NCBI GenBank assembly: GCA_021790935.1
Contig: JAJYFL010000006.1
Span: 62,001 to 126,000 of the forward strand
Source: a bacterium
GTDB taxonomy: Bacteria; Vulcanimicrobiota; Vulcanimicrobiia; Vulcanimicrobiales; Vulcanimicrobiaceae
Reading direction: 5' to 3'
DNA: 64,000 nucleotides
In this document: positions 29,532-45,376 of the stretch, one piece after another
How the letters are laid out: every line of letters starts with the position of its first letter
Numbering within the stretch: position 1 is the stretch's first letter
Translations under genes and position numbers: made by a program
The notes under the pieces: generated by a model
What the model was told of the DNA's origin: nothing
The model's input: the letters and a program-made list of their open reading frames with translations, nothing else
Databases searched by the model: none

Positions 29532-31214
29532 GTGGCCGCGAGCAGCTGTGTGGGCGCGCATCCGGCTTGCAGGCGCGCTCCGCACCCACGTCCAATCATC
29601 CAGGCCATGGCGCGCATGGCTGCCTTTGGCGTTGGCGCCGTGACCGTGTGTTCCGTCGGCATTGCCAGCCTCGTCGGGCTCGGTTACGTGCTCGAGGGCA
29701 ACGGTCTGGTCGTCGCCGCGCTCCTGCTTCCGCCGCTGATTATAGCGCTGGTCGTACAGATTTTTGCCCGTCACGACCGCGCCACGGCTGCGGTGTCGCT
29801 GTACTTGGTGTACTCGTTTGTGATGGGCGCTGCGTTGCTCTCCGTGACGATCGGCGCCGCGGCGAACACGGAGTTGAACGCGCTCGCCGCGGTGTTCGCC
29901 CAGCTTGCGCTCTGGCGCGCCTGCGTCGTTCTCGACGCTTTCTCGTCGTCGGACACGTCCCGTGCCACGCGCCGCTTCGGGTTCGCAGCGCTGTTCAGCG
30001 CTCTCTTGACGATTGCGGCGATCGGCATCTTCGTTGCGATGCTCGTCATTGGGATGAACAACTCACGCATACTCCATCACCTGCACGTGCTCGCGCCGTT
30101 CGCACTTGCGTACGCTCTCGCGTCATTCGGGCTGCTCTCCCTGCTCTTGGTGTCGACCGCGGCTCTCGTCGTTCGCATCGTGCGAATGCTGCGCTCCAGA
30201 ACCGGCGACGTGCGACGGCTGCAATGGATTGCCCCCGGATTGCTGTTCAGTTGCGCGATGTCGGTCGCGATTGTCATCGTCAGCGCATACGGCGTTGTCA
30301 AGGTGCTTGAGGCCTATGCCGCATTCGCGGAAAACTCGCGTGGGTTTGGGGCACTGGCGGCGCCGGACTGGTTCACGACGAGTTGCGTGGTGGTGGGCAT
30401 CGTCGCGCAAGCGCTGCTCGCATACGCGATCCTCAGCCGGCGAATCGTGGACATCCGCTATTACCTCGCTCGCGGTACCACGTTTACGATCTTACTCATG
30501 ATGATCGTCGTGGGTGTCAGTCTCATCGAGTTCACCCTCGAGCGGATCTTCGATGCGCTCGGCGGGACGGTACCAAATTTGAAGCTCGCCGTCTCGGCCA
30601 GCGGCGCCGTCGGGCTCTCCTTCTTCGCACAGCGGCTTCATAATGCCACAGAACATCGCGTGCAGCACCTGCTCTTTCGCGATCGCTATGATCTTCTCGC
30701 TGCGTTGCGGTCGTTTCGCGCCTCCATCTATCAGTTCTGCGACGAACGGACGCTCATCGCAAGCGCAAGTAGCGTGCTGCGCGAACGCACGCACTGCGAT
30801 GCGGCAGTCATCGCCCTGCGCGATAACAGGGATCGGCTACGCATCGAACGCGGTGACGCAGCGGGGACCATCGTCCCCGACGACGACCCGCTCGCTGCCG
30901 AACTGCGCGAACGCGCCGCTCCGGTTGACGCCGCGGGGCTCGTTTCCGCACTCGGGTCGGGCAGCGCGTTTCCATGCGTGTTGCGCGGGCAGCTCTTCGG
31001 CATTGTTCTATTGCAACGCCGCGCGGAAGCCGAAGCCTTCGCGCCCGACGAATCGGCCGCCATCGCGGATGTGGTTACGCACATCGGGCTCGCTACGGAC
31101 GCTCTCCGCGCCGCCCGCCTTCGGGCTATCGTAAACCAAGCGCTGGCAGATCGAGTCGGTATCGAGCAGCTTGAAGGTCTGCTTTCGGCGGAGGAGTCCG
31201 TACGCTCGTGCTGA
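29532..31214 (+). CDS. Membrane protein with C-terminal GAF domain, no kinase
   Basis: 560 aa from GTG 29532 (ATG 29607 is an alternative). At least eight hydrophobic segments fill the first ~370 residues (for example LEGNGLVVAALLLPPLIIALVV and ILLMMIVVGVSLIEF). The region AILSRRIVDIRYYLARG followed by a helix and then ERTLIASASSVLRERTHCDAAVIALRD marks a GAF sensor domain, an arrangement common in membrane histidine kinases. The protein stops right after the GAF domain, with no HisKA or ATPase part. It may be a truncated sensor or a stand-alone ligand receptor. It lies at the edge of the defence island but is still GC-rich. Confidence 0.65.
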   Translation: MAASSCVGAHPACRRAPHPRPIIQAMARMAAFGVGAVTVCSVGIASLVGLGYVLEGNGLVVAALLLPPLIIALVVQIFARHDRATAAVSLYLVYSFVMGAALLSVTIGAAANTELNALAAVFAQLALWRACVVLDAFSSSDTSRATRRFGFAALFSALLTIAAIGIFVAMLVIGMNNSRILHHLHVLAPFALAYALASFGLLSLLLVSTAALVVRIVRMLRSRTGDVRRLQWIAPGLLFSCAMSVAIVIVSAYGVVKVLEAYAAFAENSRGFGALAAPDWFTTSCVVVGIVAQALLAYAILSRRIVDIRYYLARGTTFTILLMMIVVGVSLIEFTLERIFDALGGTVPNLKLAVSASGAVGLSFFAQRLHNATEHRVQHLLFRDRYDLLAALRSFRASIYQFCDERTLIASASSVLRERTHCDAAVIALRDNRDRLRIERGDAAGTIVPDDDPLAAELRERAAPVDAAGLVSALGSGSAFPCVLRGQLFGIVLLQRRAEAEAFAPDESAAIADVVTHIGLATDALRAARLRAIVNQALADRVGIEQLEGLLSAEESVRSC

Positions 31215-31303
31215 GGATGCCGCTCTGGCCTATCGGCGCCGTGGCCCTCATCGCCGGCGCGATTGTCTTCGTTTGCGCGCAGCGATACATCGGGTCGCCG
31301 TGA
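31208..31303 (+). CDS. Possible 31-aa single-span membrane peptide
   Basis: A GTG overlaps the stop of the GAF protein and opens a short frame reading MLRMPLWPIGAVALIAG, then AIVFVCAQRYIGSP and TGA. One hydrophobic helix followed by a short polar tail is typical of small membrane proteins. Support is only the overlap and the composition; it could be spurious. Confidence 0.3.
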   Translation: MLRMPLWPIGAVALIAGAIVFVCAQRYIGSP

Positions 31304-31402
31304 TGGACCTTCTCCGGCCTTAGATCGCTAGAGGGAACGGTCTCCGCGTCAGTCTCGTGCCGCAGCACGTTCGTCGCCAGCCGAAATTTGAAAAAAGAGA
31401 GA

Positions 31403-31425
31403 TAATCGTAACATTATTACGATTA
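31403..31425. promoter_or_regulatory. Upstream AbiEi operator (23-bp inverted repeat)
   Basis: Perfect 9-bp arms (31403-31411 and 31417-31425) around a 5-base spacer. The half-site TAATCGTAA matches the TARTCGTAR consensus shared with the second repeat at 31467-31489. The centres are 64 bases apart, about six helical turns. Likely bound by the AbiEi product. Confidence 0.65.
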
Positions 31426-31441
31426 CTGCGCTAGTGACAAA

Positions 31442-31489
31442 TTGATTTTGCTTGAAATATGCTATATAGTCGTAGCGTGGCTACGACTA
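31442..31489 (+). promoter_or_regulatory. abiE promoter with overlapping operator
   Basis: A -35 box TTGATT (31442-31447) and a -10 box TATAGT (31465-31470), 17 bases apart, predict transcription from about 31477, the GTG start itself. A perfect 10-bp inverted repeat with a 3-base spacer (31467-31476 and 31480-31489) covers the -10 box and start codon, so protein binding would block transcription. Confidence 0.65.
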
Positions 31490-32214
31490 ACCAAGGCAAA
31501 CTAAAGAGCCTCTACACCCAGCTTCCGGCGGGCGCCCCTGTGACCTCAAGTGACTTGGCCCGCCTAGGTATATCGGCGGACTTGGCTGTCCACTACGCTC
31601 GTTCAGGCTGGCTGAGCCGTTTGGCGCGAGGCGTGTACGGCCGCCCTGGCGACACCCTGGCGCTTCATCCCAGCCTGACCTTGCTGCAGCGAAAGATCGA
31701 CGGGCTGCACGTCGGCGGCAAGTCGGCGTTGGAGTGGTACGGTCTGCGCCACTATGTTTCGCAACAAAGCATCTTGCACTTGTACGGCTGGACTACCACC
31801 CGTCTGCCAGAGTGGTTCGTTCGGCGATTCCCCAGCGAGTATCATCGCAAGCGGCTGCTCGATGAGCAACCCGACAGGCCGCTTAACGTCGGTAGATTCG
31901 AAAACCGCGAGGGTGCACCGCTGGTTTCGGAACCCGAACGCGCGATACTGGAACTCCTCAGTGAAGTCGGTGTTCGGCAGCAGCTGCACGAAGCTCGCGA
32001 AATCATGGAGGGCACGTACAGCCTGCGCGCCGACGTACTTGAGCAATTGTTGATGCATTGTAGGAGCGTAAAGACCGTGCGCCTGTGTCTGCAGCTCGGC
32101 CACGAACTGAAGCTGAACTGGGCATCGAAACTCGACGCCAAGAAACTGCCGACCGGGAGCGATCGGCCTTGGGTATCGAAATCCAAGCAGGGCTTGCTCG
32201 TGCTAAAACCATGA
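31477..32214 (+). CDS. abiEi: AbiEi antitoxin / transcriptional repressor (type IV TA)
   Basis: Antitoxin of the AbiE system: an N-terminal winged helix binds DNA for negative autoregulation and the C-terminal domain neutralises the toxin. The start at GTG 31477 (245 aa) is chosen because the in-frame ATG at 31459 lies between the -35 and -10 boxes. MATTNQGKLKSLYTQLP with SSDLARLGISADLAVHY is the winged helix; the C-terminal part contains LISEPERAILELLSEVG-like residues (VSEPERAILELLSEV). The last bases overlap the toxin start (ATGA). Two 23-bp operators precede it. Confidence 0.85.
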   Translation: MATTNQGKLKSLYTQLPAGAPVTSSDLARLGISADLAVHYARSGWLSRLARGVYGRPGDTLALHPSLTLLQRKIDGLHVGGKSALEWYGLRHYVSQQSILHLYGWTTTRLPEWFVRRFPSEYHRKRLLDEQPDRPLNVGRFENREGAPLVSEPERAILELLSEVGVRQQLHEAREIMEGTYSLRADVLEQLLMHCRSVKTVRLCLQLGHELKLNWASKLDAKKLPTGSDRPWVSKSKQGLLVLKP

Positions 32215-33152
32215 ATCAAGTGTATCTCGATACTGCCCGGCTGATGACGCAAGTTGCGCCACTGGTCTTTGCCGACGGCATCTTCGCACTGAAAGGCGGA
32301 ACAGCGATCAACCTGTTCCTCCGCGACATGCCGCGCCTGTCGGTTGACTTGGACCTCGTTTTCGTCGATCACCGCCTTTCCCGTGACGAAGCGCTCAGGT
32401 CCATCAACACAGCGATCCAAAAAGCCGTCAACCGTCTTGAGGCAAACGGTTTCCGGACGCACGTCACGACAGCCCGCGACGTCGGTGAAACCAAACTCCT
32501 CGTGCGAAGCGGCAACATAGAGGTTAAAGTCGAAGTCAACTTCGTAATGCGCGGCACCGTCTATCCGGTGCAGACCGCTTCGCTCACAACTACGGCAAAG
32601 GAAGCCCTGCTCGGCGACCTGGAGCTGCCGATCCTATCGCTGGAAGACGTATACGGTGGAAAGCTCGTTGCCGCTATGGACCGCCAGCACCCGCGCGATC
32701 TTTTCGACGTGCTGCAACTTTTCGGTCACGAAGGCATCACACCGGGTATCCGCCGTAGCTTTGTGGTCTACCTCGCCAGCCATAACCGACCGATCCACGA
32801 AGTGCTGTTCCCCACGAAAAGGGAAATCGTTCAAGAATATGAGGGAACGTTTCGAGGGATGACCGCGGAACCGGTTGGGTTATCGGAGCTGCTCGCCGCG
32901 CGCGAGCGATTGATCGCTGAACTTCAACAAGACTTGAGCGCGCAAGAACGGCAGTTTTTGCTCTCGCTCGCCAATGCCGAACCGGAGTGGTCCTTGCTCG
33001 AAATCGAGCATCTGGAGCAGTTGCCCGCTATACGATGGAAGCTGCAAAACCTTCGGGAACTGGCGAAGAAGAATCCTGCGAAGTTGCGCGATCAAGCAGA
33101 CGAATTGGCGCGCCGGCTCGGATTGTCGTTACCAAGTCCGGAATCGGCCTGA
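32211..33152 (+). CDS. abiEii: AbiEii toxin, nucleotidyltransferase (type IV TA)
   Basis: Toxin of the AbiE pair, DNA polymerase beta-like nucleotidyltransferase fold. ATG 32211 overlaps the antitoxin stop by four bases; the longer frame upstream is the antitoxin region in another phase. Motif I is KGGTAINLF (Gly29, Gly30), motif II is SVDLDLVF (Asp46, Asp48), and motifs III/IV include VEVNFV and YGGKLVAAMDRQHPRDLFDV (Lys151, Arg162, Asp163). All catalytic residues look intact, so the toxin should be active. 313 aa is normal. Confidence 0.88.
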   Translation: MNQVYLDTARLMTQVAPLVFADGIFALKGGTAINLFLRDMPRLSVDLDLVFVDHRLSRDEALRSINTAIQKAVNRLEANGFRTHVTTARDVGETKLLVRSGNIEVKVEVNFVMRGTVYPVQTASLTTTAKEALLGDLELPILSLEDVYGGKLVAAMDRQHPRDLFDVLQLFGHEGITPGIRRSFVVYLASHNRPIHEVLFPTKREIVQEYEGTFRGMTAEPVGLSELLAARERLIAELQQDLSAQERQFLLSLANAEPEWSLLEIEHLEQLPAIRWKLQNLRELAKKNPAKLRDQADELARRLGLSLPSPESA

Positions 33153-33185
33153 GATAGCGAACCTGAAACCATTGGGAGAAAGCAC

Positions 33186-33458
33186 ATGGCTAAGACGAAA
33201 GCGTGCGTAGACGTAACCGATGCCGAAATCGGCGCTGCAATCGCACGGGGAAAGGTCTTTGAGCAGTACGCGCCGCGCGCTGTTAAAGCCGCCTATCGTG
33301 AGAAAGACGACGTGATCGCCATCACGCTTTCGACCGGGATCGAAATCGCAATCCCGCGCAAACCTCTTCACGAAATTAGCATCGGTCTTGCTACCGCCGC
33401 AATGCTCGACCATATCGACTTCGAAGAATCCCCGGCGGCGGGGTCTCCCCGTCGCTGA
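33186..33458 (+). CDS. DUF2442-like protein, C-terminally truncated
   Basis: 90 aa. VTDAEIGAAIARGKVF followed by AVKAAYREKDDVIAITLSTGIEIAIPR matches the N-terminal half of DUF2442 proteins. The usual second half (the LDxDxxVPxLL region) is missing: after LDHIDFEE the frame runs into ESPAAGSPRR and stops, exactly where transposase-like sequence starts on the other strand. Probably a gene fragment rather than a working protein. Its place after abiEii may be chance. Confidence 0.5.
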   Translation: MAKTKACVDVTDAEIGAAIARGKVFEQYAPRAVKAAYREKDDVIAITLSTGIEIAIPRKPLHEISIGLATAAMLDHIDFEESPAAGSPRR

Positions 33459-33462
33459 AGGC

Positions 33463-33531
33463 CTTCTCCCTCCTCGATGCCGCCCGGTACCGTGTGCCCA
33501 CCGCCGCGAGCAATTCCTTCCGTGTTCCCAT
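33463..33531 (-). pseudogene. Transposase N-terminal remnant
   Basis: Minus-strand codons read MGTRKELLAAVGTRYRAASR followed by REKA, which resembles the start of integrase-core transposases (RKELxxAVxxRYxxASxxEK). The likeness ends there. Upstream of it (to about 33610) are short repeats with the core GCTACCC, as found at the ends of such insertion sequences. Only a scar of an insertion sequence is left. Confidence 0.4.
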
Positions 33532-33795
33532 GCTGATTCGCCTCAATCTGCCTTTCCGTTCCCGCCGGAGTAGCCCGGCGGGTAGCATTTTGCGTGAGGC
33601 AACGAGTAGTCTCATGGGTAGCTTTTCCGACGAGTCAATGCGCCGGCGGAGGAACTGAACCAAGGCGAGGGGCTTGGTCGCGGTAGGTGAGGGGTCGCCT
33701 TAAATAGCAAAGCCGCCTTGCGGCGGCTCGCACCCTCGCTCCGAGGATTGAGGGGGGATCCGCTACTATGATATCAGGGTAGGCAAGGGCTGGCC
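33532..33795. other. Non-coding stretch between the two toxin-antitoxin modules
   Basis: No convincing gene. It holds the probable insertion-sequence end repeats (33570-33630), a small hairpin (GCCGCC, TT, GCGGCGGC-type, around 33711-33727) that could terminate the first module, and a GC-poor approach to the next promoter. Confidence 0.4.
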
Positions 33796-33830
33796 TTGCC
33801 TTGTCACGTTTTTCTATAGTAAAATGTGAC
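33796..33830 (+). promoter_or_regulatory. Promoter/operator of the DUF6088-AbiEii module
   Basis: TTGCCT (33796-33801), an 18-base spacer and TAAAAT (33820-33825) place transcription at about 33832, right at the ATG. A 28-bp imperfect inverted repeat (33803-33830, arms GTCACRTTTTWCT with 11 of 13 matches) covers the whole core promoter and touches the start codon, suggesting autorepression. Confidence 0.5.
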
Positions 33831-33832
33831 CA

Positions 33833-34468
33833 ATGACGGCCAATACCGTAGCGGACGCCGTCCGCCGATACCTCAAGAGACTCGAACCTGGGACCGTTTT
33901 CACCCCGGCGGAGTTGGTCCACGCTCGGCTAGGCTCTGAGGATGCAGTTCGCCAGGCACTTCGCCGTCTTGCATCCGCCGGGGATGTCCGGCGCCTATCC
34001 AAGGGCTACTATGACATCCCTCGCGTCAACCCGCGAATTGGCGTCCTTAGCCCAACCCCCGAGGCAATTATCGCCGCCCATAAGCGGAAGACGGGAGCTA
34101 CCATTGAGCGGCCCGAGGTCGACGCCGCGAACAAGTTGGGCTTGACCACGCAAGTCGTCGCTAGGCCTGTCTATCGTACGAATCTGTTTCCGCGCGATCT
34201 AAACATCGGCGGCCAGCGTATCAGATTGCGCACGGCCGGCCCGCGCTCGCTTGCCGGGAAAGCCGATGATCCCGCAGAGCTCGTGATCGACGCGCTTCAG
34301 GCAATTGGCAAGGCGCACATTACGGACGTGCAGATCGCCAAGCTGCGCGACTTTGTGCGCTCGCATAGCCTCGAAAAAAAACTTCGCCAACGAGCGCGCC
34401 GCGCGTCGTCGTGGATGCTCCCGGTAGTCGACAAGATTCTAGCCAGGGACCAGGAGGCGCATGGATAG
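33833..34468 (+). CDS. DUF6088 family protein, AbiEi-like antitoxin
   Basis: 211 aa. N-terminal winged-helix (VADAVRRYLKRLEPGTVFTP, then VRQALRRLASAGDVRRLSKGYY) in the style of AbiEi/DUF6088 repressors; the C-terminal part is basic (RQRARRASSW). It overlaps the following nucleotidyltransferase by eight bases. Not similar in sequence to the abiEi at 31477, so this is a second independent module rather than a duplication. Confidence 0.75.
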   Translation: MTANTVADAVRRYLKRLEPGTVFTPAELVHARLGSEDAVRQALRRLASAGDVRRLSKGYYDIPRVNPRIGVLSPTPEAIIAAHKRKTGATIERPEVDAANKLGLTTQVVARPVYRTNLFPRDLNIGGQRIRLRTAGPRSLAGKADDPAELVIDALQAIGKAHITDVQIAKLRDFVRSHSLEKKLRQRARRASSWMLPVVDKILARDQEAHG

Positions 34469-35483
34469 CTTCGCGCGGTTGCCTGCCTCCGATCGTCGCG
34501 AGATCATCCAGGAGCGGGCAACCCAAATGGACGTCGATTTCACGATCGTGGAAAAAGACTTCTGGGTTTGCTGGACCCTGAAGTCTCTCTTTTCTCTTCC
34601 ACCCGGAAACGCGGCTATGACCTTCAAGGGTGGAACATCGTTGTCGAAGGCTTACGGGCTTATCGATCGGTTTTCTGAAGACATCGATGTTGCCATCAAG
34701 CCAGGGTTCTTTATTGCTCAGGGATTTGACGATCCGGAAGAGCCTGGTCTCAGTAAGCCGCAACGCGATCGTCGTCGGCGTGCGCTCGATGTCGCCTGTG
34801 CAGGATATATCGGTGACCCGCTCTTGGCAGAGTTACAGACCCAATTTTCAACGAGGCTCGCATCAACCGACGGATGGAGTATTGATGTCGATCCGACGGA
34901 TAGTAATGCGTTGCTCTTCCAGTACCGTCAGAGCAATCCCCAACTAGACTATTCGAGTGTTCTTGGCGGCGTAAAGATCGGAATAGTTAAAATAGAATTG
35001 GGCTGGCGCGCCAAGACGGATCCGCAAGAACCCAGGACGATAGTGCCTTTTCTGGCCGAGATCCCCATGCTCTTGCGGAGCCCTCAGGTTATTTGCAACG
35101 TTCTCGCGCCCGGCAGAACGTTCTGGGAAAAGGTAACCGCATTGCACGCAGAGAGTTTCCGCGGCGAGACGAAGCGGTTCTTTTCGCGTCATTATTCCGA
35201 TGTCGCGGCGATGCTTCAAACGCAGATCGGCAAAACTGCCTCTCGTGATCTTGCGATGCTTGACGATGTGCGCATTTTCAAAGATGTCTATTACCACTCG
35301 GGATGGGCGCGCTACGACCTAGCTAGACCGGGTTCGCTCGCCATTGTTCCAAGTCGCGAGAAGCTGCGCGACCTGGCCGGCGATTATCGAGGTATGCGAC
35401 AAATGTTCTTAAGTCATCCGCCGTCGTTCGATTGGGTGATCGATCAGCTCCGAGCCTTCGAAAGCGAAGTGAATGCCGCCTAG
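34461..35483 (+). CDS. Nucleotidyl transferase AbiEii/AbiGii toxin family protein
   Basis: 340 aa, DUF1814-type toxin. Motif I is FKGGTSLSKAYG (Gly57, Gly58, Ser60) and motif II is FSEDIDVAI (Asp74, Asp76). The N-terminal helix VEKDFWVCWTLKSLF is typical of the DUF1814 branch paired with DUF6088. The C-terminus includes HYSDVAAML and KDVYYHSGWARYD, also family features. Active-site residues intact. Confidence 0.82.
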   Translation: MDSFARLPASDRREIIQERATQMDVDFTIVEKDFWVCWTLKSLFSLPPGNAAMTFKGGTSLSKAYGLIDRFSEDIDVAIKPGFFIAQGFDDPEEPGLSKPQRDRRRRALDVACAGYIGDPLLAELQTQFSTRLASTDGWSIDVDPTDSNALLFQYRQSNPQLDYSSVLGGVKIGIVKIELGWRAKTDPQEPRTIVPFLAEIPMLLRSPQVICNVLAPGRTFWEKVTALHAESFRGETKRFFSRHYSDVAAMLQTQIGKTASRDLAMLDDVRIFKDVYYHSGWARYDLARPGSLAIVPSREKLRDLAGDYRGMRQMFLSHPPSFDWVIDQLRAFESEVNAA

Positions 35484-35708
35484 AGTGCGCCAAAAGTCTC
35501 GGTGCGGCCAAATTTATAAGGGCGCCCGCTCGGCGGCTGAGAATGTCGTCCCGCAGGTCCGGTATGCGAAATTTGCCGCTAACCATCCGCCCGTATCCGT
35601 ACAACGGGCGGCGCCCCGTCGTTTGAGAGCAAAGCCGCGCGAAAAAACACCCAGCATGGACGATGCAGCGGTCAACAGTGGTGGATCGATATTGAAAAAA
35701 CTGGAACG
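35484..35708. other. Spacer before the five-gene defence operon
   Basis: 225 bases with no clear gene or strong promoter. A 79-codon frame (35473-35712) starts within the toxin's last codons and ends overlapping the helicase ATG, which would allow coupling. Its product is basic, resembles nothing I know, and could equally be open by chance. The operon may be read through from the toxin genes. Confidence 0.3.
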
Positions 35709-38570
35709 ATGATCACCGACTATCAAGCAAAATACATTGCCCACGACCTCACGCGGCGGCGATCCTCTGATAGCGCCGAACGTCTGGCGGTAGCTGTTGC
35801 TGGGGCACAAGTCGATGTGAATCCACATCAGGTCGATGCTGCCCTTTTTGCATTCGCATCTCCCCTATCCAAGGGGGCTCTGCTTGCCGATGAGGTGGGC
35901 CTAGGCAAGACGATTGAGGCTGGGTTAGTAATCTCTCAGCGCTGGGCAGAGGGCAAACGCTGTATCCTCATCGTCGTTCCGGCCAACCTACGTAAGCAGT
36001 GGCTTCAGGAACTGAACGAAAAGTTCTTCATCCCCTGTACGATTTTAGAAGCACGCTCCTTCAACGCCGAGATCAAGGCTGGGAATTCCAGTCCGTTCCA
36101 GCCGCGCGATAGCGTCGTTATCTGTTCCTACCAGTTCGCGCGAAGCAAGGCGGCGGAGGTGGCGGGAACGCCATGGGATTTGGTAGTCATGGACGAGGCC
36201 CATAGGCTCCGGAACGTCTATAAGCCTTCCAACGTTATCGCCAATACCCTTAAGGGAGCGCTCGCCCAACGCAACAAACTGCTATTGACGGCGACGCCGC
36301 TTCAAAACTCGCTGTTAGAGTTGTTCGGCCTCGTTAGCTTCATCGATGAGCATTCGTTCGGCGACATTAACAGCTTCCGCGAACAGTTCGCCGGTGTGCC
36401 CCAGGAGCGCGCGTTCGACCTTTTGCGCGAACGTTTAAAGCCCATCTGTCATCGCACTCTACGTCGGCAGGTGACAGCTTATGTGCCCTATACCAAACGC
36501 CACGCGATCTTGCAAGAATTCAGCCCGGACGAGGCCGAGGACCGGCTCTACAAGCTCGTCACTGCCTACCTTCAACGCGACAATTTGCAGGCTCTACCGT
36601 CCGGCCAGCGTGCCCTCATGACACTGGTATTGCGCAAGCTGCTGGCGTCGTCGTCCTTCGCAATCGCTGGGGCGCTTTCGTCCATCTCCGAGCGTCTCCA
36701 GTTGCGGCTTAACAAGGGCCGGCGTGTGGCTTCCCTGAGCGACGCGGTCGATGAAGACTACGAGGCGCTCGACGATACTGAGGAAGAATGGGCTGAAGAT
36801 GATGCGGCCGAGCCATTGAGCGAGGCAGACCTGCGCGCGCTCGAAGCAGAGATCGCCGAGTTGCGTGAGTTCGCCGCTTTGGCAACGTCCATTGAGCAAA
36901 ACGCCAAAGGGCGCGCTTTGCTCACCGCTTTGGAGATTGGCTTCGCAAAGGCTCGCGAGTTTGGCGCGGCGGAAAAGGCGATTATCTTCACCGAGTCCCG
37001 GCGCACGCAGTCCTATCTGCTACGCGTGCTGGCGGACAGCCCATGGGCGGATTCCATCGTCTTGTTCAACGGCAGCAACACCGATGAACAGTCGCGCACC
37101 ATCTATCAAGAATGGTTGGCGTGTCATGCCGGATCTGACCGTGTTACTGGCTCGCGTACGGCCGACATGCGTTCGGCCCTTGTCGATTATTTCCGAGATC
37201 GCGGCAGGATCATGATCGCAACGGAGGCGGGCGCCGAGGGCATCAACCTCCAGTTTTGCTCCATGATCGTCAATTACGACCTGCCCTGGAATCCGGCGCG
37301 TATCGAGCAGCGCATCGGCCGTTGCCACCGTTACGGCCAGAAGCACGATGTCGTCGTGGTCAATTTCCTCAACCGCAAGAATGAGGCCGATCAACGCGTC
37401 TACCAACTTCTTTCCGAGAAATTCCAGCTCTTCGAGGGCGTATTCGGAGCCAGCGACGAGGTACTGGGCGTCGTCGAATCCGGCGTTGATTTCGAGAAGC
37501 GCATTGCCGGGATTTACCAGCAATGTCGGCAGCCTGCCGAAATTAGGGCGGCTTTCGACAGCCTCCAGCGTGAGTTGAGTTCGGAGATCAGCGAAGCAAT
37601 GACCCTAGCTCGTCGAAAGCTCCTGGAGAACTTCGACGACGAAGTGCGCGAAAAACTCAAGCTCCGCGATCAGGACACCGGCCAGCACCTCCAGCACTTC
37701 GAGCGCCAGTTGATGCGTCTCGCAGAGCATGAACTGAAAGGTTCAGCATCCTTCACCAACGGATCGTCTTTTTGCCTCGACGCACTGCCGGATTGGGTTA
37801 GCGATCGCTCGATACCGACCGGCCTCTACGAGCTGCCGCGCCGATCGGGCGAGGCGCACCTCTTCCGGCTCAATCACCCCTTGGGCGATGCCCTCGTCAC
37901 TCACGCGTTGCAGCGCGAACTGCCAGCCCGCGAGATTGTTTTCAACTATACAGCCCACGAGGGGCGTATCAGCGTAGTCGAACCTTTTGTCGGTAAAGCC
38001 GGCTGGATGACAGCCTCGCTTTTGTCTATTAACGCCCTCGGCCAGAGCGAAGATCACTTGTTGGTCGCGGGTCAATGCGACGACACCGCGGTGCTGAGCG
38101 AAGAGACCGCGAACCGCCTACTCACCATCGGCGCTCATATCGGCTCACCGATCACTGCGCCTGAGGCTGTTGAGCTGCAACTTGCAGCGCGGCTCGCCGA
38201 TCAGCAGAATCGGATTCGCCGTGGCATATCGGAGCGCAATGCCCGTTTCTTCGAGATGGAGGCCGACAAGTTAGATGGTTGGGCCGACGATCTCAAGGTC
38301 GGCCTGGAGCGCGAACTAAAAGATCTGGACCGGAAGATGAAGGAAGCCCGAAGAACCGCCACGGTTGCCTTGACGTTGGAGGAAAAGCTAGCGGGGCAAA
38401 AGATGGTCAAGGCGCTTGAGGCTGAACGCTCCATGAAGCGCCGTACGCTGTTCGACGCGCAGGACCGGATCGACGCACAGCGCGCCGAGCTGATCGCGCA
38501 GATTGAGGGGAAGCTGGAGCAGACTGTCGACCAGAAACTGCTATTCACGATTCGCTGGAGGATTCAGTGA
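35709..38570 (+). CDS. SNF2/RapA-type DNA helicase-translocase
   Basis: 953-aa SF2 ATPase. Motif I is DEVGLGKT (61-68), motif II DEAH (162-165), motif III LLTATPLQNS, motif V AEGINLQF and motif VI RIGRCHRYGQ (535-544), all intact. An acidic insert (residues about 345-380) separates the two RecA lobes, and the C-terminal ~150 residues are predicted coiled coil (MKEARRTATVALTLEEK). Such translocases accompany DISARM (DrmD) and several restriction systems. The 61-aa gene starts in its stop codon (GTGA). Likely moves on or remodels DNA for the methylase-nuclease partners; this is inferred from context. Confidence 0.88.
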   Translation: MITDYQAKYIAHDLTRRRSSDSAERLAVAVAGAQVDVNPHQVDAALFAFASPLSKGALLADEVGLGKTIEAGLVISQRWAEGKRCILIVVPANLRKQWLQELNEKFFIPCTILEARSFNAEIKAGNSSPFQPRDSVVICSYQFARSKAAEVAGTPWDLVVMDEAHRLRNVYKPSNVIANTLKGALAQRNKLLLTATPLQNSLLELFGLVSFIDEHSFGDINSFREQFAGVPQERAFDLLRERLKPICHRTLRRQVTAYVPYTKRHAILQEFSPDEAEDRLYKLVTAYLQRDNLQALPSGQRALMTLVLRKLLASSSFAIAGALSSISERLQLRLNKGRRVASLSDAVDEDYEALDDTEEEWAEDDAAEPLSEADLRALEAEIAELREFAALATSIEQNAKGRALLTALEIGFAKAREFGAAEKAIIFTESRRTQSYLLRVLADSPWADSIVLFNGSNTDEQSRTIYQEWLACHAGSDRVTGSRTADMRSALVDYFRDRGRIMIATEAGAEGINLQFCSMIVNYDLPWNPARIEQRIGRCHRYGQKHDVVVVNFLNRKNEADQRVYQLLSEKFQLFEGVFGASDEVLGVVESGVDFEKRIAGIYQQCRQPAEIRAAFDSLQRELSSEISEAMTLARRKLLENFDDEVREKLKLRDQDTGQHLQHFERQLMRLAEHELKGSASFTNGSSFCLDALPDWVSDRSIPTGLYELPRRSGEAHLFRLNHPLGDALVTHALQRELPAREIVFNYTAHEGRISVVEPFVGKAGWMTASLLSINALGQSEDHLLVAGQCDDTAVLSEETANRLLTIGAHIGSPITAPEAVELQLAARLADQQNRIRRGISERNARFFEMEADKLDGWADDLKVGLERELKDLDRKMKEARRTATVALTLEEKLAGQKMVKALEAERSMKRRTLFDAQDRIDAQRAELIAQIEGKLEQTVDQKLLFTIRWRIQ

Positions 38571-38752
38571 CCGTTAAGCCATCACCATCGGAGACTCTAT
38601 CCGCGGAGCTTGTCGATAACCTGATCGCAGCGGGGTTGCTTCGAGCTAACAAGCGTGACGCCCTGATCGCCAAGATTGCTGCCGGTGACATGAGAGGCCA
38701 GGATTGGAAGCACGAAATCGACCTAGCTCAAGCAAGAGTGGTCTCGGAATGA
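38567..38752 (+). CDS. Small 61-aa component of the defence operon
   Basis: GTG 38567 overlaps the helicase stop, and its own TGA overlaps the ATPase ATG, so it is locked between two large genes by four-base overlaps on both sides. The product is mostly helical (LSAELVDNLIAAGLLRANKR, DALIAKIAAGDMRGQDWKHE) and charged. No family recognised. Such placement favours a real subunit or adaptor. Confidence 0.6.
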   Translation: MTVKPSPSETLSAELVDNLIAAGLLRANKRDALIAKIAAGDMRGQDWKHEIDLAQARVVSE

Positions 38753-41070
38753 GTGCAATTGCTCCGCTAAAGTCGCTTAGCATCACGGCATTTCGGGGAT
38801 CCTCTACTACGTTTACGTTGCCGTTTGAGAAAGGCCGGAAGCTTACGCTGATCTATGGCGAGAACGGCACGGGAAAGACCACGATTTGCGACGCCTTTGA
38901 ATTGCTGGCGCATGGGCGCGTATCGTCACTCGACGGATATGGCCTTGGTAGGGGACTAGAAAAGTACTGGCCGACGACCGGGAGGTCCCTCGGGGACTTG
39001 TCAGTGGCGTTAGAGACGAACGCCGGCACGTGTTCCGGCAAGATGATCGGCAAGGACGTGAACGTGTCGCCCACGACACTGCGCCCGAAGATCGAATTGC
39101 TGCGGCGCCAGCAGATGCTTGATCTGATCAAGGCAGCACCAGCGGAGCGCTACGAGGCCATCAAACGTTTTATCGATATAGCTACTTTCGAGATATCTGA
39201 AGAGGCGTTGAGAAAGCAGACCAAAAGCCTCCGGGATGAGTGCACGACTGCCGAGCGAGCAGAGGGCCAGAGCCTTCAGGAGCTGCAGGGCTTCTATGAA
39301 GCAGCCGGGGAGCCAGCTGGACTGAACGCGGTGACGTGGGCTAAGCAGAAAATCGCCGAGCCGATGACCGATCTTGGCGGTGACATCGCGGCCGTCGGAA
39401 AGCTCCGAACCGCATTTGACGCACTTACGGGTTTCCCCGAAAGAGCGAAGACGCGCCAAAAGGCGTTGGCAGAAGCCACGGAGGCGCTCGCCAAAGCAGA
39501 AATGGCGCTGCTGGCAGCGGCGAACGCGGCTACCGGCAGCGCTGCTGACACGTTGGAGTTGTTGGAAGCGGGCAGCAAATATTTGCATGACCATCCTGAT
39601 GTGGTCGAATGTCCTCTGTGTCGCAGCCAAGAGAATGCGGTAGGACTGGCAGACGCACTCGCAGCTCAACTCGCTGATTTAGAAGCATTGCGATCGGCGA
39701 CGGGAAAGCGCCAGCAATGCGCAACAGCGTTGACGGCCGCGCAAAGCGCGATGACCCAACTTAATGCCGACTATGCAGATGCCGTTGATGCGTATAAACG
39801 GGCTGAGGGAAGCCATGCGTGGAGGGCTGAGGTAACCCTGCCTATCGATGCACCTAGCGCTGACCCACTATCGATTTCCGTATGGCTGCAGGTTAACGAG
39901 ACAACGGCTCAGTCATGGCCCGCGGTGGAAGCATCATGGCGTGACGAAAAGAAGTTTGTTCAGACCTTGTCCGCGGCAAATGATCGCTACGAGCAAAACC
40001 TCGCCACGCGCATCCAGTTGGCTACATTGGTACCAAAGCTGGAGGAGGCACTCAGGCACTGCATCGAGCAGCGGCAGGGTTTCACGAACAAGATAATCGG
40101 CGAGATTGCGCAAGAGGTCGGCAAGCTTTACGAGCAGGTTCACCCCGGCGAGGGGCTGGACAAGATCGCTTTGCCTCTGGATCCCAAGAAGCGCGCTTCA
40201 ATAGAACTGGAAGCCAAGTTTTTAGGGCAGGACGCTCCCCCACAGGCATATTTCAGTCAGTCACACCTCGATACGCTTGGTTTGTGTGTGTTCCTCGCGC
40301 TTGCTGCCCGTGAACAGCCTGACGAAACCGTTCTAATCTTGGATGACGTGCTTGGCAGCGCGGATGAGCCGCATGTCGAACGAGTCGTCGGTATGGTTTA
40401 CGAGGTCAGCGAGAAGTTCCGTCACACCCTCGTTACCACGCACTATCGGCCCTGGCGCGAACGTTTCCGTTGGGGGTCGCTTAAGCCCGGCCAGCCGTGC
40501 CAGTTCGTCGAACTGACGCAGTGGAGCATTACGGACGGAATAGGTCGTGCCGGCTGCCTGCCGGAAATTGATCTGCTGAAGGGTCTGCTTGCGCAAAGCC
40601 CTCTTGATACGCAGTCGATTTGTAGCAAAGCCGGCGTGATCCTCGAATACGCTTTGGATTACCTAACCCTGCGCTATGAATGCCGCGTTCCACGTCGCTA
40701 CGGTAACCCGTACACCCTTGGCGAATTACTGAACGCGATCGACAAGAAGCTACGCGAGGCGCTGTGCGTAGAAATTCGCGATGGCCTAACAGATTCGAAC
40801 GCAGTGTCCACTAAACACATCCAGCTGAAACCAATATTGGATGAACTCTCGCGTATCGCACAGGTGCGCAACGCGTTGGGCGCGCACTTCAAGAGTATTT
40901 CGTTTGACTTGCTCGATCAGGATGCTATCAGCTTCGCCGGGCATGTCGTGCAGTTAGTGGACGCTCTTTCTCATCCCGACCATGGTTGGCCCACCAATGA
41001 CAACTCCGGAAGTTACTGGCGCAACAATGACGACAGCCGTCGTCTCCATCCCCTCAAGAAACCCAGCTAA
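38749..41070 (+). CDS. Rad50/RecF-like ATPase with CxxC hook and HEPN-like C-terminus
   Basis: 773 aa starting at ATG 38749. The ABC-type ATPase halves are split: Walker A YGENGTGKTT (36-45) at the front; signature-like FSQSHLDTLG (502-511), Walker B TVLILDDVLGSAD (Asp532, Asp533) and an H-loop in TTHYRPW near 560. Between them lies a coiled-coil arm with CPLC (288-291) at its tip, as in Rad50 zinc hooks. After about residue 590 a helical domain carries QVRNALGAHF (Arg707, His713), an Rx5H motif of HEPN ribonucleases. This domain order recalls the RloC/PrrC anticodon nucleases that guard restriction systems, though direct homology is not shown. The tail (GWPTNDNSGSYW, RLHPLKKP) looks like a zinc ribbon that has lost its cysteines. 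Confidence 0.8.
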   Translation: MSAIAPLKSLSITAFRGSSTTFTLPFEKGRKLTLIYGENGTGKTTICDAFELLAHGRVSSLDGYGLGRGLEKYWPTTGRSLGDLSVALETNAGTCSGKMIGKDVNVSPTTLRPKIELLRRQQMLDLIKAAPAERYEAIKRFIDIATFEISEEALRKQTKSLRDECTTAERAEGQSLQELQGFYEAAGEPAGLNAVTWAKQKIAEPMTDLGGDIAAVGKLRTAFDALTGFPERAKTRQKALAEATEALAKAEMALLAAANAATGSAADTLELLEAGSKYLHDHPDVVECPLCRSQENAVGLADALAAQLADLEALRSATGKRQQCATALTAAQSAMTQLNADYADAVDAYKRAEGSHAWRAEVTLPIDAPSADPLSISVWLQVNETTAQSWPAVEASWRDEKKFVQTLSAANDRYEQNLATRIQLATLVPKLEEALRHCIEQRQGFTNKIIGEIAQEVGKLYEQVHPGEGLDKIALPLDPKKRASIELEAKFLGQDAPPQAYFSQSHLDTLGLCVFLALAAREQPDETVLILDDVLGSADEPHVERVVGMVYEVSEKFRHTLVTTHYRPWRERFRWGSLKPGQPCQFVELTQWSITDGIGRAGCLPEIDLLKGLLAQSPLDTQSICSKAGVILEYALDYLTLRYECRVPRRYGNPYTLGELLNAIDKKLREALCVEIRDGLTDSNAVSTKHIQLKPILDELSRIAQVRNALGAHFKSISFDLLDQDAISFAGHVVQLVDALSHPDHGWPTNDNSGSYWRNNDDSRRLHPLKKPS

Positions 41071-41078
41071 GGCAGTAG

Positions 41079-42722
41079 ATGGCGAAAAAGCAGAAACTTG
41101 AGCTAACTTGGGTCGGTAAGGAAAATCGTCCTCGGCTGGAGCCCCGTATCCTCATCGAAGATGCGGCGAAAAGCTATCATGCCGCCGCGCGTATGAGCGA
41201 TAGGGACATTTTCGACAACGTCCTAATACACGGCGACAATCTGCTGGCCCTGAGGGCACTGGAACAAGACTTCGCCGGAAAGATAAAATGCGTCTTCATT
41301 GATCCGCCCTATAACACTGGCAGCGCTTTTACTCACTACGATGATGGGCTGGAGCATTCCATCTGGCTCGGCCTGATGCGCGACAGGCTGGAGATTCTCC
41401 GTCGCCTTCTGTCGGACGACGGGTCGCTATGGATTACTATTGACGAAAATGAGGGGCATTACCTCAAGATACTGTGCGACGAGATATTTAGCCGAGCCAA
41501 CTTCGTGCGACAGATAACGTGGCAAAAAAAATACAGTGTTAGCAATAACTTCAAGGGTATCGCATCAATATGCGATATGATTTTAGTTTATCGTAAGTCG
41601 GAGAGGTTTCAGAACAATCTACTCCCGCGCTCCGAAGAGGCTGCAAGCCGCTATTCAAATCCCGACAACGACCCCAGAGGTCCTTGGAAAGCGGTGGATT
41701 ATCTCAATCAGGCAACGGTCGAGCAGAGGCGCAACCTCGTATATGAAATACGCAATCCGTTTACCGGCGAAGTGGTGAGGAATCGGGTAAAGGCTTGGAA
41801 ATATGACCCTGAAACGCATAGGAAGCACGTTGAAGAGAACCGTCTTTGGTGGGGTCTAAGCGGCGAAAACTCAGTGCCAGCCCTTAAGTTGTTCCTGAGT
41901 GAAGTTAGGGTAGGAATGACGCCACATAATTGGTGGCGTCACTCTGATGTTGGACATACTGATGAGGCTAAGAAAGAGAGTATCGCGCTTTTTGGTGCTG
42001 CCAATGTTTTTGATACCCCGAAGCCTGAGCGTCTAATTCACCGCATATTGACGCTCTCAACCAATGCCGGCGATCTTGTTCTAGATTCATTCGCGGGCTC
42101 AGGCACCACTGGCGCTGTCGCGCATAAGATGGGGCGTCAATGGATCATGGTCGAGCTTGGCGAGCATTGCTTGACCCATATCGTACCGAGGCTCAGGAAG
42201 GTGATCGACGGCGCCGATCCTGGCGGCGTTACCGAGGCCGTCGATTGGAAGGGTGGCGGCGGCTTTCGTTATTACGAACTCGCGCCGTCATTGCTGCAAA
42301 AGGACAAGTGGGACCGCGAGGTCATCTCTATGCGCTATAATGCGGAGATGCTGGCGCAGGCTCTGTGCAAGCTGGAGGGGTTTATATACGACCCCAGCCC
42401 CGATGTCTATTGGCAACACGGCCGGTCCTCGGAGACGGACTTCCTTTACGTCACGACGCAGACGATGGCGCCAAACGAATTAGCGGCCTTAGGCGACGAG
42501 GTCGGAGAGGGCCGGTCGCTACTGGTTCTCTGCTCCGCCTTTCGCGGCAACGCGGATCAATGGCCGAACCTGACGGTGCGCAAGATCCCGAACCATATTC
42601 GCAGCCGTTGCGAATGGGGTCACGACGACTACAGCCTTAACGTCGCTAACTTGCCGATGGCCAAGCCGAACGCAAAGCGGCCGAAGCAGGCCGGACTGTT
42701 CGATGACGGAGACGAGACGTGA
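41079..42722 (+). CDS. Type III-like site-specific DNA-methyltransferase (Mod), beta class
   Basis: 547-aa N6-adenine (or N4-cytosine) methyltransferase. Catalytic motif IV is DPPY (75-78) and the AdoMet-binding motif I, DSFAGSG (336-342), follows it: the circularly permuted beta order of Mod subunits. The central part (about 140-330) should hold the target-recognition region; it contains NDPRGPWKAVD and TPHNWWRHSDVGHTDEAKKE-type residues and is visibly richer in AT than the flanks. Starts eight bases after the ATPase gene and overlaps the res start (GTGA). Would provide self-marking and the recognition specificity for Res. Confidence 0.9.
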   Translation: MAKKQKLELTWVGKENRPRLEPRILIEDAAKSYHAAARMSDRDIFDNVLIHGDNLLALRALEQDFAGKIKCVFIDPPYNTGSAFTHYDDGLEHSIWLGLMRDRLEILRRLLSDDGSLWITIDENEGHYLKILCDEIFSRANFVRQITWQKKYSVSNNFKGIASICDMILVYRKSERFQNNLLPRSEEAASRYSNPDNDPRGPWKAVDYLNQATVEQRRNLVYEIRNPFTGEVVRNRVKAWKYDPETHRKHVEENRLWWGLSGENSVPALKLFLSEVRVGMTPHNWWRHSDVGHTDEAKKESIALFGAANVFDTPKPERLIHRILTLSTNAGDLVLDSFAGSGTTGAVAHKMGRQWIMVELGEHCLTHIVPRLRKVIDGADPGGVTEAVDWKGGGGFRYYELAPSLLQKDKWDREVISMRYNAEMLAQALCKLEGFIYDPSPDVYWQHGRSSETDFLYVTTQTMAPNELAALGDEVGEGRSLLVLCSAFRGNADQWPNLTVRKIPNHIRSRCEWGHDDYSLNVANLPMAKPNAKRPKQAGLFDDGDET

Positions 42723-45376
42723 GCAATCTTCGCCATGTAAACGCCATCGCTGGGCGCATGAGTCTGCGCGCTCCGCAGCGCGAGAGTCTCGAAATCCTTG
42801 ATCGTGTGACTGAGATCGTGCCATTGTCCAAAGAGGTCGACCTTGCTACGACCTTGGCGACCATCCGCAGCGAGTTTCCTGGCGTCACGGATTTCGAGCG
42901 GGATTTTCCATCGCTCTGCTACGCGCTCGCAACGGGCGTCGGCAAGACGCGTCTTATGGGAGCGTTCATTACCTATCTACGGATCGCGCATGGCATCAAT
43001 AATTTCTTCGTCCTTGCGCCCAACCTTACGATCTATAACAAGTTGATCGCGGACTTTACGCCCAATGCGCCCAAGTACGTCTTTAAGGGCATCTCCGAGT
43101 TTGCCGTTTCGCCGCCGGTGCTGACGACTGGCGAGAGCTTTGAACGGCAGATCGCGTCAGGCGGTCAGCTTTTTCCAACCACCATCAACATCTTCAACAT
43201 CTCCAAGATCGCCTCAGAGGGGCGACGGATGCGTTCTTTCCGTGAAGAGATCGGCGGAAGCTATTTCGATTATCTCGCGAGCCTTCCTGACCTCGTGCTG
43301 CTCATGGATGAGTCGCACCGTTACCGTGCCACCGCTGGGATGCGTGCAATCAACGAGTTGAAGCCGATCCTTGGGCTGGAGTTAACCGCCACGCCGTTCA
43401 CGGAAAGTACGCGCGGACCCATTCCGTTCCGAAACGTCATCTTCGACTACCCGCTTGCGCGAGCGATGGAAGATCATTTCGTCAAAGAGCCGGCCGTCGT
43501 CACGCGCAAGGATTTCAATCCGCTGGGCAAGTCGCCCGAGGCGATCCAGACACTAAAGCTGGAGGACGGCATTCGCCTGCACGAGAGCGTAAAGGTTGAG
43601 TTGGAGACCTATGCGCGCGAGAACGGTGAGCGAATCGTCAAACCGTTTGTGCTGGTGATCGCTCGTGACACAACACACGCCGCCGAGCTGATGAAGCTCA
43701 TTCAGTCTGACGTCTTCTTTCAGGGGCGCTACGCGGACAAGGTAATCCAGGTCGATTCAAGTGTGAAGGAAGAAGAGACCGTCGAAAAGTTGCTGACAGT
43801 CGAGCACTACGACAATCCGGTTGAGATCGTCATTCACGTCAACATGCTTAAGGAAGGCTGGGATGTAACGAACCTCTACACGATCGTGCCGTTGCGAGCC
43901 GCTAACGCCCGCACATTGATCGAGCAGAGTATCGGGCGCGGTTTGCGCCTGCCGTATGGTAAGCGTACTGGCGTAACTGCCGTCGATCGCTTGAACATCG
44001 TCGCCCATGACCGCTTTCAGGAGATCGTGGACGAGGCGAACGATCCGAAGTCGCCCATCCGCCTGAAGCACCTTATACTCGACGATGTCGAGCTAGACCG
44101 CAGGACCACGACCGTTGTGGCCTCGCCGACCATCCTGACCGGCCTCGGCCTACAATCGACTCCGGCGGTCCCGAATTCCGCCGTACCGAGCGCGCCGCCG
44201 GCGTTTACCGATCCCGAAGAACAAAAAGTTGCGCAGCTCGCCTACGATGCAATCCACAAACTCGCGCGCTCTCCGGACAAAGTGCCGGGCGTTTCCTATC
44301 TCATCAACCCGGAGGTCCAGGCACAGGTCGTCAGAGAGGTGCAGAGCCGGTATCAGTCGCCGTTGGAGTTGGAAGGCATCGGTAAACCGGCGCCCGACAT
44401 GGCGGCCGTGATCGCCGCGACGATGAAGCTGGTTGTCGAGCGCACCATCGACATTCCCCGCATCGTCGTCATGCCCAAGGGTGAGGTAAGGGCGGGCTTT
44501 CGTCCCTTTACGCTCGACCTTTCGGGAGTGCGCTATCCCGCTCCGAGCGAGGAGCTCTGGGCTAAGCATCTGCGCACCGATCAGATCGACGTTATCGAAG
44601 TCGCACAGGGGAATCCGATCGAGAAGCGGCCGGAGGACTATGTCGTCAGCGGGCTGATCGACTTTCCCGATATCGCCTACGACGAAAACGCCGATTTGCT
44701 CTACGACCTCGCCGGGCAGGTTGTGCGGCACCTGCGAACTTTTCTGGCCGAAAGGGAAGCCGGGCAGGTTCTCTCCCTTCATCAACGCGAGATCGCGCGC
44801 GCCGTACATGCGCAGATGCTGGATCATTTCTGGCTTGACGATACAGTGGAATATCACCACGAGGTCCGGCAGGGCTTTACCGAGCTGAAGGAGAGCGCGT
44901 TCACCGCCATCGATGCGTCGCCGCTCGATTATCGCATCTCCCCGGCAGACAAGAACAATATGCCGCGGTACCTGTTCGGCGGCTTCAGTAAATGTTTGTC
45001 GAATGTCGCGAAGTTCCACTCGGAGGCGGAGCGAAAGCTGGCCGTGATTCTCGAGCGCGAGGCCTTGAAGTGGCTACGCCCTGCGAAGGGGCAGTTCCAG
45101 ATGTTCTACCGCAGTGGCCACGACCATTTCGAGTATCAGCCGGATTTCGTCGCCGAGATGGGTGACAGCATCGCTATGCTGGAGCCTAAAATGACGACGC
45201 AGATGACCGATAAGGACGTGCTGGCGAAACGAGACGTGGCTGTCCAGTGGTGCGGTTGGGCGAGCGAGCACGCGCGAACTTACGGTGGCAAGCCATGGCG
45301 CTATGCGCTCATTCCCCACGATGCCATTGCCGAGAATGTTACGATCACTTTCTTGCTCGAACGGTACGGCTTCTGA
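42719..45376 (+). CDS. Type III restriction enzyme Res subunit (helicase-endonuclease)
   Basis: 885 aa. SF2 motor with Walker A ATGVGKT (71-77), DESH box (197-200), LTATPF motif III, and motif VI IEQSIGRGLRLPYG. The C-terminal PD-(D/E)XK nuclease has EYQPDFVAE with Asp809 and LEPKM with Glu822 and Lys824. All active-site residues are present, so cleavage should be possible. It forms a complex with Mod. Its start codon overlaps the mod stop. Last gene of the operon; a hairpin with T-run lies about 165 bases downstream. Confidence 0.9.
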   Translation: MSNLRHVNAIAGRMSLRAPQRESLEILDRVTEIVPLSKEVDLATTLATIRSEFPGVTDFERDFPSLCYALATGVGKTRLMGAFITYLRIAHGINNFFVLAPNLTIYNKLIADFTPNAPKYVFKGISEFAVSPPVLTTGESFERQIASGGQLFPTTINIFNISKIASEGRRMRSFREEIGGSYFDYLASLPDLVLLMDESHRYRATAGMRAINELKPILGLELTATPFTESTRGPIPFRNVIFDYPLARAMEDHFVKEPAVVTRKDFNPLGKSPEAIQTLKLEDGIRLHESVKVELETYARENGERIVKPFVLVIARDTTHAAELMKLIQSDVFFQGRYADKVIQVDSSVKEEETVEKLLTVEHYDNPVEIVIHVNMLKEGWDVTNLYTIVPLRAANARTLIEQSIGRGLRLPYGKRTGVTAVDRLNIVAHDRFQEIVDEANDPKSPIRLKHLILDDVELDRRTTTVVASPTILTGLGLQSTPAVPNSAVPSAPPAFTDPEEQKVAQLAYDAIHKLARSPDKVPGVSYLINPEVQAQVVREVQSRYQSPLELEGIGKPAPDMAAVIAATMKLVVERTIDIPRIVVMPKGEVRAGFRPFTLDLSGVRYPAPSEELWAKHLRTDQIDVIEVAQGNPIEKRPEDYVVSGLIDFPDIAYDENADLLYDLAGQVVRHLRTFLAEREAGQVLSLHQREIARAVHAQMLDHFWLDDTVEYHHEVRQGFTELKESAFTAIDASPLDYRISPADKNNMPRYLFGGFSKCLSNVAKFHSEAERKLAVILEREALKWLRPAKGQFQMFYRSGHDHFEYQPDFVAEMGDSIAMLEPKMTTQMTDKDVLAKRDVAVQWCGWASEHARTYGGKPWRYALIPHDAIAENVTITFLLERYGF

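Follow-up and report, generated by a model that had tools for sequence, protein, structure and literature searches.

A zinc-hook ABC ATPase with a probable HEPN domain and a 61-residue partner between the helicase and methyltransferase genes of a type III restriction operon

RloC, a Rad50-like zinc-hook protein, is a wobble-excising tRNA anticodon nuclease. PrrC, which belongs with the type Ic restriction-modification system PrrI, is hookless and tied to hsdMSR, and it was PrrC, together with type I enzymes, that led to the proposal of a nested defense in which restriction comes first and suicide follows. In Lamassu, the ATPase LmuB is reported to carry a Walker B motif of a Glu-to-Gln form. 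The Lamassu operon also contains a small middle component that adjoins the ATPase (PMC10586767). For Eco86II and BspHIV, and from more than 500 genomes, PMC8259958 describes an additional SF2 helicase gene that lies 5′ of mod and res.

The window, by which we mean the whole stretch of 64,000 nucleotides analyzed here, contains a locus comparable to each of these systems. Like PrrC in its type Ic setting, a predicted ABC-HEPN effector lies within a restriction operon; in contrast to PrrC, it has a hook, and its neighbors are type III mod and res genes with an extra SNF2 helicase. The position of that helicase resembles the arrangement in Eco86II and BspHIV. The original prediction, that such an ATPase is coupled to a type III instead of a type I system, holds well beyond the window, as this coupling is conserved in dozens of genomes.

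The restriction operon and its surroundings

The operon runs on the + strand in the order helicase, 61-residue gene, ATPase, Mod and Res (Table 1), with intergenic gaps of −4 to +8 bases, and the five genes therefore form one operon. The small gene overlaps both of its neighbors by four bases, through GTGA at the helicase stop and ATGA at the ATPase start. The ATPase frame is intact from its ATG at 38749 to its stop at 41070. An alternative start proposed by the ORF tool, TTG 38704, was dropped because the ATG yields the ATGA coupling and agrees with the homologues. Both genes of a type III restriction-modification system, mod and res, were recognized by Pfam and PADLOC, and Res consists of a helicase plus a C-terminal PD-(D/E)xK-like motif, PDFVAEMGDSIAMLEPK, identified by eye. 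The upstream helicase matches SNF2-rel_dom (7e-36) and Helicase_C in Pfam and DrmD in PADLOC (1e-205), and it resembles DrmD-b of DISARM. However, its score against NCBIfam DISARM_DrmD_b, 688 bits, falls below the cut-off of 950, and the operon is devoid of DrmA, DrmB and DrmC; on the score and the absence of DrmA and DrmB from the operon, membership in DISARM was not accepted.

The G+C content drops from 0.66–0.69 in the flanks to 0.52–0.60 across about 31,000–45,000, which suggests that this region is an acquired island. A search near the operon for a tRNA, an Rfam element or a promoter or terminator signal above chance found none, and insertion at a tRNA site is therefore not supported. AbiEi/AbiEii pairs are type IV toxin-antitoxin systems in which AbiEii is the toxin. 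Two tandem pairs of different subfamilies (31459–35483) lie directly 5′ of the operon, the first of which is possibly part of the same island, and a 90-residue frame between them (33186–33458) matched nothing in Pfam or PADLOC. AbiE pairs also adjoin the operon at three other loci (L072, L073 and L090), and an E. coli plasmid (L242) has one close to a helicase homologue.

Table 1 Features of the operon, its ATPase and its upstream neighbors, in window coordinates
Feature	Coordinates	Strand	Basis
AbiEi/AbiEii pair 1, upstream neighbor	31459..33152	+	Pfam AbiEi_3 9e-39, AbiEii 1.5e-39
AbiEi-like (DUF6088)/AbiEii pair 2, upstream neighbor	33833..35483	+	Pfam DUF6088 4e-26, AbiEii 1e-33
DrmD-like SNF2 helicase, 953 aa, first gene of the operon core	35709..38570	+	Pfam, PADLOC, NCBIfam
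Small partner protein, 61 aa, GTG start	38567..38752	+	ORF calling, family profile
ABC/Rad50-like zinc-hook ATPase with C-terminal HEPN-like domain, 773 aa	38749..41070	+	Alignment, AF2, Foldseek
Walker A, residues 37-44, GENGTGKT (flanked by Y36 and T45)	38857..38880	+	G37, N39, G42, K43 in 65/65 rows
Zinc hook CPLC, residues 288-291	39610..39621	+	C288, P289, C291 in 65/65 rows; AF2
ABC signature region, residues 502-512 (YFSQSHLDTLGL at about 501-512)	40252..40284	+	S503 64/65, H506 63/65, D508 63/65
Walker B, residues 527-533, TVLILDD	40327..40347	+	D532, D533 in 65/65 rows
HEPN-like helical domain, about residues 606-740	40564..40968	+	AF2 domain and full-chain models
E633, acidic residue of HEPN helix 2	40645..40647	+	Invariant in 53 rows; helix 621-642 (AF2)
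R707-N708-x4-H713 (RNALGAH), predicted HEPN active-site motif, end of helix 3	40867..40887	+	Alignments, AF2
Type III methyltransferase Mod, 547 aa, DPPY and FAGSGTTG	41079..42722	+	Pfam N6_N4_Mtase 3e-46; PADLOC MTase_III 4e-208
Type III restriction subunit Res, 885 aa	42719..45376	+	Pfam ResIII 1e-17; PADLOC REase_III 1e-188

The zinc-hook ATPase and its C-terminal domain

When 84,980 species genomes were scanned with a profile built from seven sequences, 75 loci were recovered. Together with plasmid and phylum relatives these gave 64 homologues of at least 700 residues and an alignment of 65 rows; a second alignment, of 53 rows, was used for invariance. L049, in which AbiEii runs into the ATPase, was excluded as evidence because it is frameshifted and degraded, and L091 is broken too. 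The original prediction had read from the letters a 773-residue frame with Walker A, a CPLC hook, a signature, Walker B and an R707/H713 pair, and the ORF check and the 65-row alignment located every one of them at its predicted position. Outside the motifs listed in Table 1, the D-loop (S537/D539) and H-loop (H565) were recognized, with D539, H542 and H565 present in 65/65 rows. The full-chain AF2 model (pLDDT 85.5) proceeds from an N-terminal head through an ascending coil, a tip loop with CPLC, a descending coil and the second half of the head to a helical C-terminus, which places CPLC in the loop between the coil helices and hence at the predicted coiled-coil tip. The best Foldseek matches of this model were Rad50 and SMC heads and Lamassu LmuB. 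Alignment, model and fold search thus agree on the Rad50-like head and zinc hook that had been proposed. No relative was found in phage records, and matches in viral contigs were mostly limited to the short Walker A stretch.

In the HEPN superfamily, as described by Anantharaman and colleagues (PMC3710099), an acidic residue lies in helix 2, an insert separates helices 2 and 3, and an Rx4-6H motif with a polar residue after the arginine ends helix 3. AF2 modeling of the C-terminal domain (191 residues, pLDDT 83.5, pTM 0.80) gave a helix 1, a long helix 2 with E633, a two-strand insert, a kinked helix 3 with R707-N708-x4-H713 at its end, and a helix 4, an order that agrees with this description. 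The motif has the form R-N-x4-H, with x3 in a few homologues, and so contains the polar residue in the expected place. When the domain was compared with PDB by Foldseek, the top match was 1wwp, at a probability of 0.75 and a weak E of 0.35, and Csm6, a HEPN protein, appeared lower down. The entry 1wwp is listed as HEPN-T in PMC3710099. In the 65-row alignment H713 is present in 65/65 rows, R707 in 62/65 and N708 in 61/65. Two of the R707 exceptions are distant outgroup ATPases (L018 and L088), and the third (L093) is an alignment shift in which RN-x3-H is still present. R707, G711 and H713 are invariant across the 53 rows, and nearly all of the 61 family members retain R707-N708 and H713. The conservation of R707 and H713 anticipated in the original prediction is therefore borne out among the homologues, and, judged from the alignments, that of head, hook and C-terminal motif is far beyond chance.

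By sequence, the domain matched nothing in Pfam, PADLOC or PDB; no HEPN family was found in Pfam or PADLOC for the 53 members, and a fold search of BFVD gave no match. Weak RecA matches in the PDB search at residues 699–736, which span the C-terminal motif, were taken as chance since no stretch passed alone. Profile comparison with RiboL-PSP HEPN by hhalign placed RN over RN at a score that is not significant (P 0.04), and comparisons with HEPN families gave P 0.04–0.08. The accepted families DUF4145 and RiboL-PSP HEPN likewise fail to find each other, so hhalign cannot decide HEPN membership. Taking motif, helix order and weak fold match together, we consider it highly probable that the C-terminal domain is HEPN, as had been proposed, and the invariant R, N and H suggest catalysis rather than binding. 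In many homologues the HEPN helices are followed by a zinc-ribbon-like tail of the form CPxCG...CxC; in the window protein (40969–41070, HPDHGWPTNDNSGSYW) the cysteines of this tail are lost.

The parallel with RloC and PrrC drawn in the original prediction stands in one respect and fails in another. RloC and the window protein share an ABC head, a zinc hook and a C-terminal HEPN-type RNase motif, in the same order and in one chain, and the Rad50-like head with hook is a family trait (CPxC in 65/65 rows, head motifs, AF2, Foldseek). Unlike RloC, the window protein has a predicted RNase domain without sequence similarity to that of RloC, an R-x5-H motif set in RN..GAH, an obligate 61-residue partner and a type III operon as host. 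The score against Pfam AAA_13, the RloC/PrrC family, is 28.3 bits against a gathering score of 36 and covers residues 30–58 only, and hhalign between the C-terminal profile of the ABC-HEPN family and that of AAA_13 proteins gave a probability of 0.3% and an E of 0.2. RloC-like proteins were recovered as a separate set. Because the AAA_13 score lies below the cut-off and the C-terminal profiles are dissimilar, membership in the RloC/PrrC family was not accepted; the ABC-HEPN protein is nevertheless predicted to work like RloC and PrrC.

The 61-residue partner and the helicase–Mod interval

The partner family was built by extending a profile from the frames that, at all loci, end a few bases from the ATPase start. 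It occurs at 61/61 loci of the ATPase family and is absent from only four outgroup ATPases, at least three of which have other small frames at this place. Its consensus is P..LA..I...L...GL...........KLA.G.....DW...IE.A, with the W in 60/61, the D in 57/61 and the G in 54/61 sequences, and neither Pfam nor PADLOC contains a match to it. Conversely, 84/84 matches to the partner profile at all loci examined adjoin a frame of the ATPase family. The partner is obligate to the ATPase; it belongs to the small genes that annotation tends to miss, and the original prediction missed it, just as it missed that several other effectors can take the place of the ABC-HEPN gene in its slot.

The helicase is encoded directly upstream of the ATPase in 47 of the 57 homologues with enough contig, and Mod directly downstream in 38 of 49. 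For a survey not selected for the ATPase, we searched for the helicase instead and detected it in 21/397 genomes of Pseudomonadota, 5/289 of Alphaproteobacteria, 6/247 of Acidobacteriota, 16/296 of Bacteroidota and 5/147 of the window's own phylum. The phyla are named after the record titles of the loci that served as search centres. The search-centre genomes, picked for carrying ABC-HEPN, were left out of the slot lists. Where a type III Mod and Res follow the helicase in this sample, the content of the helicase–Mod interval varies. It was empty at L151, L161, L162 and L171 and held the ABC-HEPN gene with its partner at L144, L167, L174 and L176, the last two also with AIPR-sized genes. Elsewhere the interval contained AIPR (L143, L153, L154), a DSR2-like SIR2 protein (L146; PADLOC 1.4e-143), Septu PtuA and PtuB (L147; 5.8e-163 and 9e-36), Schlafen-type genes (L159, L160, L168), DUF3800 (L170, L178), Bro-N (L179) or HTH-peptidase proteins (L182, L184), and at L148 GmrSD follows the helicase where the contig ends. 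Most of these operons thus have another effector, or none, in place of ABC-HEPN. Annotated plasmids of Deinococcus contain AIPR, an HTH gene and VapC in the slot, and on annotated Salmonella plasmids with the same helicase-Mod-Res chassis the slot is occupied by an Abi-family gene and an IS256 element (L243:6419-16247); one full record of the latter is an IncFIB conjugative plasmid.

DSR2 and AbiU/AIPR act by abortive infection. As relatives of both occupy the slot, the positional argument for an abortive-infection function, drawn by analogy, is strong, and ABC-HEPN with its partner look like a fail-safe, by which an infected cell would be shut down, because the slot holds known anti-virus systems in related operons. 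Neither a variable effector slot nor an ABC-HEPN gene between helicase and mod was found in the searched passages of PMC8259958. Searches of the open-licence literature recovered no account of the pair of ABC-HEPN and partner or of the slot, and an earlier account in subscription journals is possible.

The DrmD-like helicase also heads operons with a Mod of ~630 residues and a Res of ~980 residues (L149, L155, L164, L175, L177, L183). At a further eight loci (L150, L157, L158, L165, L173, L185, L187, L188) it heads an operon with a methylase-like protein of ~1000–1190 residues and usually a second large protein of ~1100 residues.

Proposed mode of action and alternative readings

The reading that we favor, and regard as reasonably probable, is that the ABC-HEPN ATPase and the 61-residue protein together make up an abortive-infection module of two genes, which sits as exchangeable cargo in the helicase–Mod slot of a type III operon. 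The data show the architecture, the conserved motifs, the gene order, the obligate partner and a slot shared with known defense systems, and we infer an RNase activity, an RNA target, a trigger by DNA ends, a role for the small protein and an anti-phage effect. Two ATPase heads and a zinc-hooked coiled coil would clamp DNA in the manner of Rad50 or Lamassu, and the small protein would sit on the ATPase and help to assemble or restrain the complex; it could be structural rather than regulatory. The C-terminal HEPN domains would be silent at first; once the ATPase had been loaded by phage DNA, or by restricted or replicating ends, the paired R707/H713 sites would cut host RNA and end phage production. 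The type III enzyme would serve as the first line and the RNase as the second. A wider generalization, to which we give even weight for and against, is that the SNF2 helicase and type III Mod/Res form a widespread chassis with a dedicated slot for exchangeable suicide effectors, a common cargo being a new two-gene defense system of ABC-HEPN and an obligate ~60-residue adaptor, which could also be fused to another toxin, AbiEii, and work alone outside the operon.

The module might alternatively be a form of Lamassu (ABC-3C), with its effector fused to an LmuB-like ATPase and the small protein in the place of LmuC. The likeness extends to an SMC/Rad50-like ATPase, a short coiled coil, a hook, a small partner adjoining the ATPase as the Lamassu middle component does, and an abortive logic. 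LmuB is the best PADLOC match of the ATPase (7e-17, over part of the model only), and LmuB structures are among its best fold matches. However, in the window the effector is fused to the ATPase, PADLOC found no LmuA gene in the operon and no LmuC match for the small protein, which is unrelated, and Walker B ends in DD and not in the Glu-to-Gln form. Membership in Lamassu was not accepted on the absence of LmuA and of an LmuC match, and a Lamassu-like system in this broader sense is possible but doubtful.

The partner itself invites comparison with toxin-antitoxin pairs, in which the 61-residue protein would be the classical antitoxin of a HEPN RNase, lost under stress, and the ATPase would regulate the toxin. 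The small gene comes first, is translationally coupled and is strictly co-inherited, and many HEPN toxins have such partners (PMC3710099). At L051:8845-9993, the partner domain forms the C-terminal end of an AbiEii nucleotidyltransferase, which is directly followed by the ABC-HEPN ATPase, and helicase, Mod and Res are absent within the stretch examined. This fusion to AbiEii may be read in favor of an antitoxin; however, its location at the end of another toxin better fits a docking domain, and a large conserved ATPase exceeds the needs of a toxin-antitoxin pair. We therefore rate this explanation as rather unlikely.

The strict gene order, the 4-bp overlaps with the helicase and the presence of helicase, Mod and Res beside most of the ATPase homologues sampled would also be expected of a restriction-enzyme subunit, in which the ATPase helps these proteins to recognize, tether or cut foreign DNA and the C-terminus is an interaction or RNA/DNA-binding domain. 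Against this, the ATPase is missing from most of the helicase-Mod-Res operons that were sampled without selection, the invariant R, N and H fit catalysis better than binding, and copies of the ATPase without any restriction gene occur on Hymenobacter and Fibrella plasmids, at L051 and at L028. In the ATPase tree, some branch supports of which are low, these copies nest inside the restriction-associated diversity and therefore look like escapes, and every intact stand-alone copy has kept the small partner. Since ABC-HEPN and its partner exist away from restriction genes, they cannot depend wholly on restriction, and a restriction subunit is decidedly improbable. Least likely is a true RloC, a wobble-excising tRNA anticodon nuclease, that moved into a type III operon, since the shared order of Rad50-like head, hook and C-terminal HEPN is outweighed by the AAA_13 score below cut-off, the C-terminal profiles that do not align and the separate set formed by RloC-like proteins.

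If the module acts as the abortive-infection cargo that we favor, the nested-defense logic would here be found in a type III operon across many phyla, with DSR2, Septu, AIPR, GmrSD and ABC-HEPN replacing each other. The slot would then be a place to seek new effectors, and it would provide a likely setting for the extra type III helicase, the role of which PMC8259958 left open. At the outgroup locus L018:8720-19900, a distinct ABC ATPase, preceded by a small frame of its own, lies 5′ of the same type of helicase; after the helicase come a gene resembling Mod, one for a PLD-like protein recognized by eye, and a Res-like gene.
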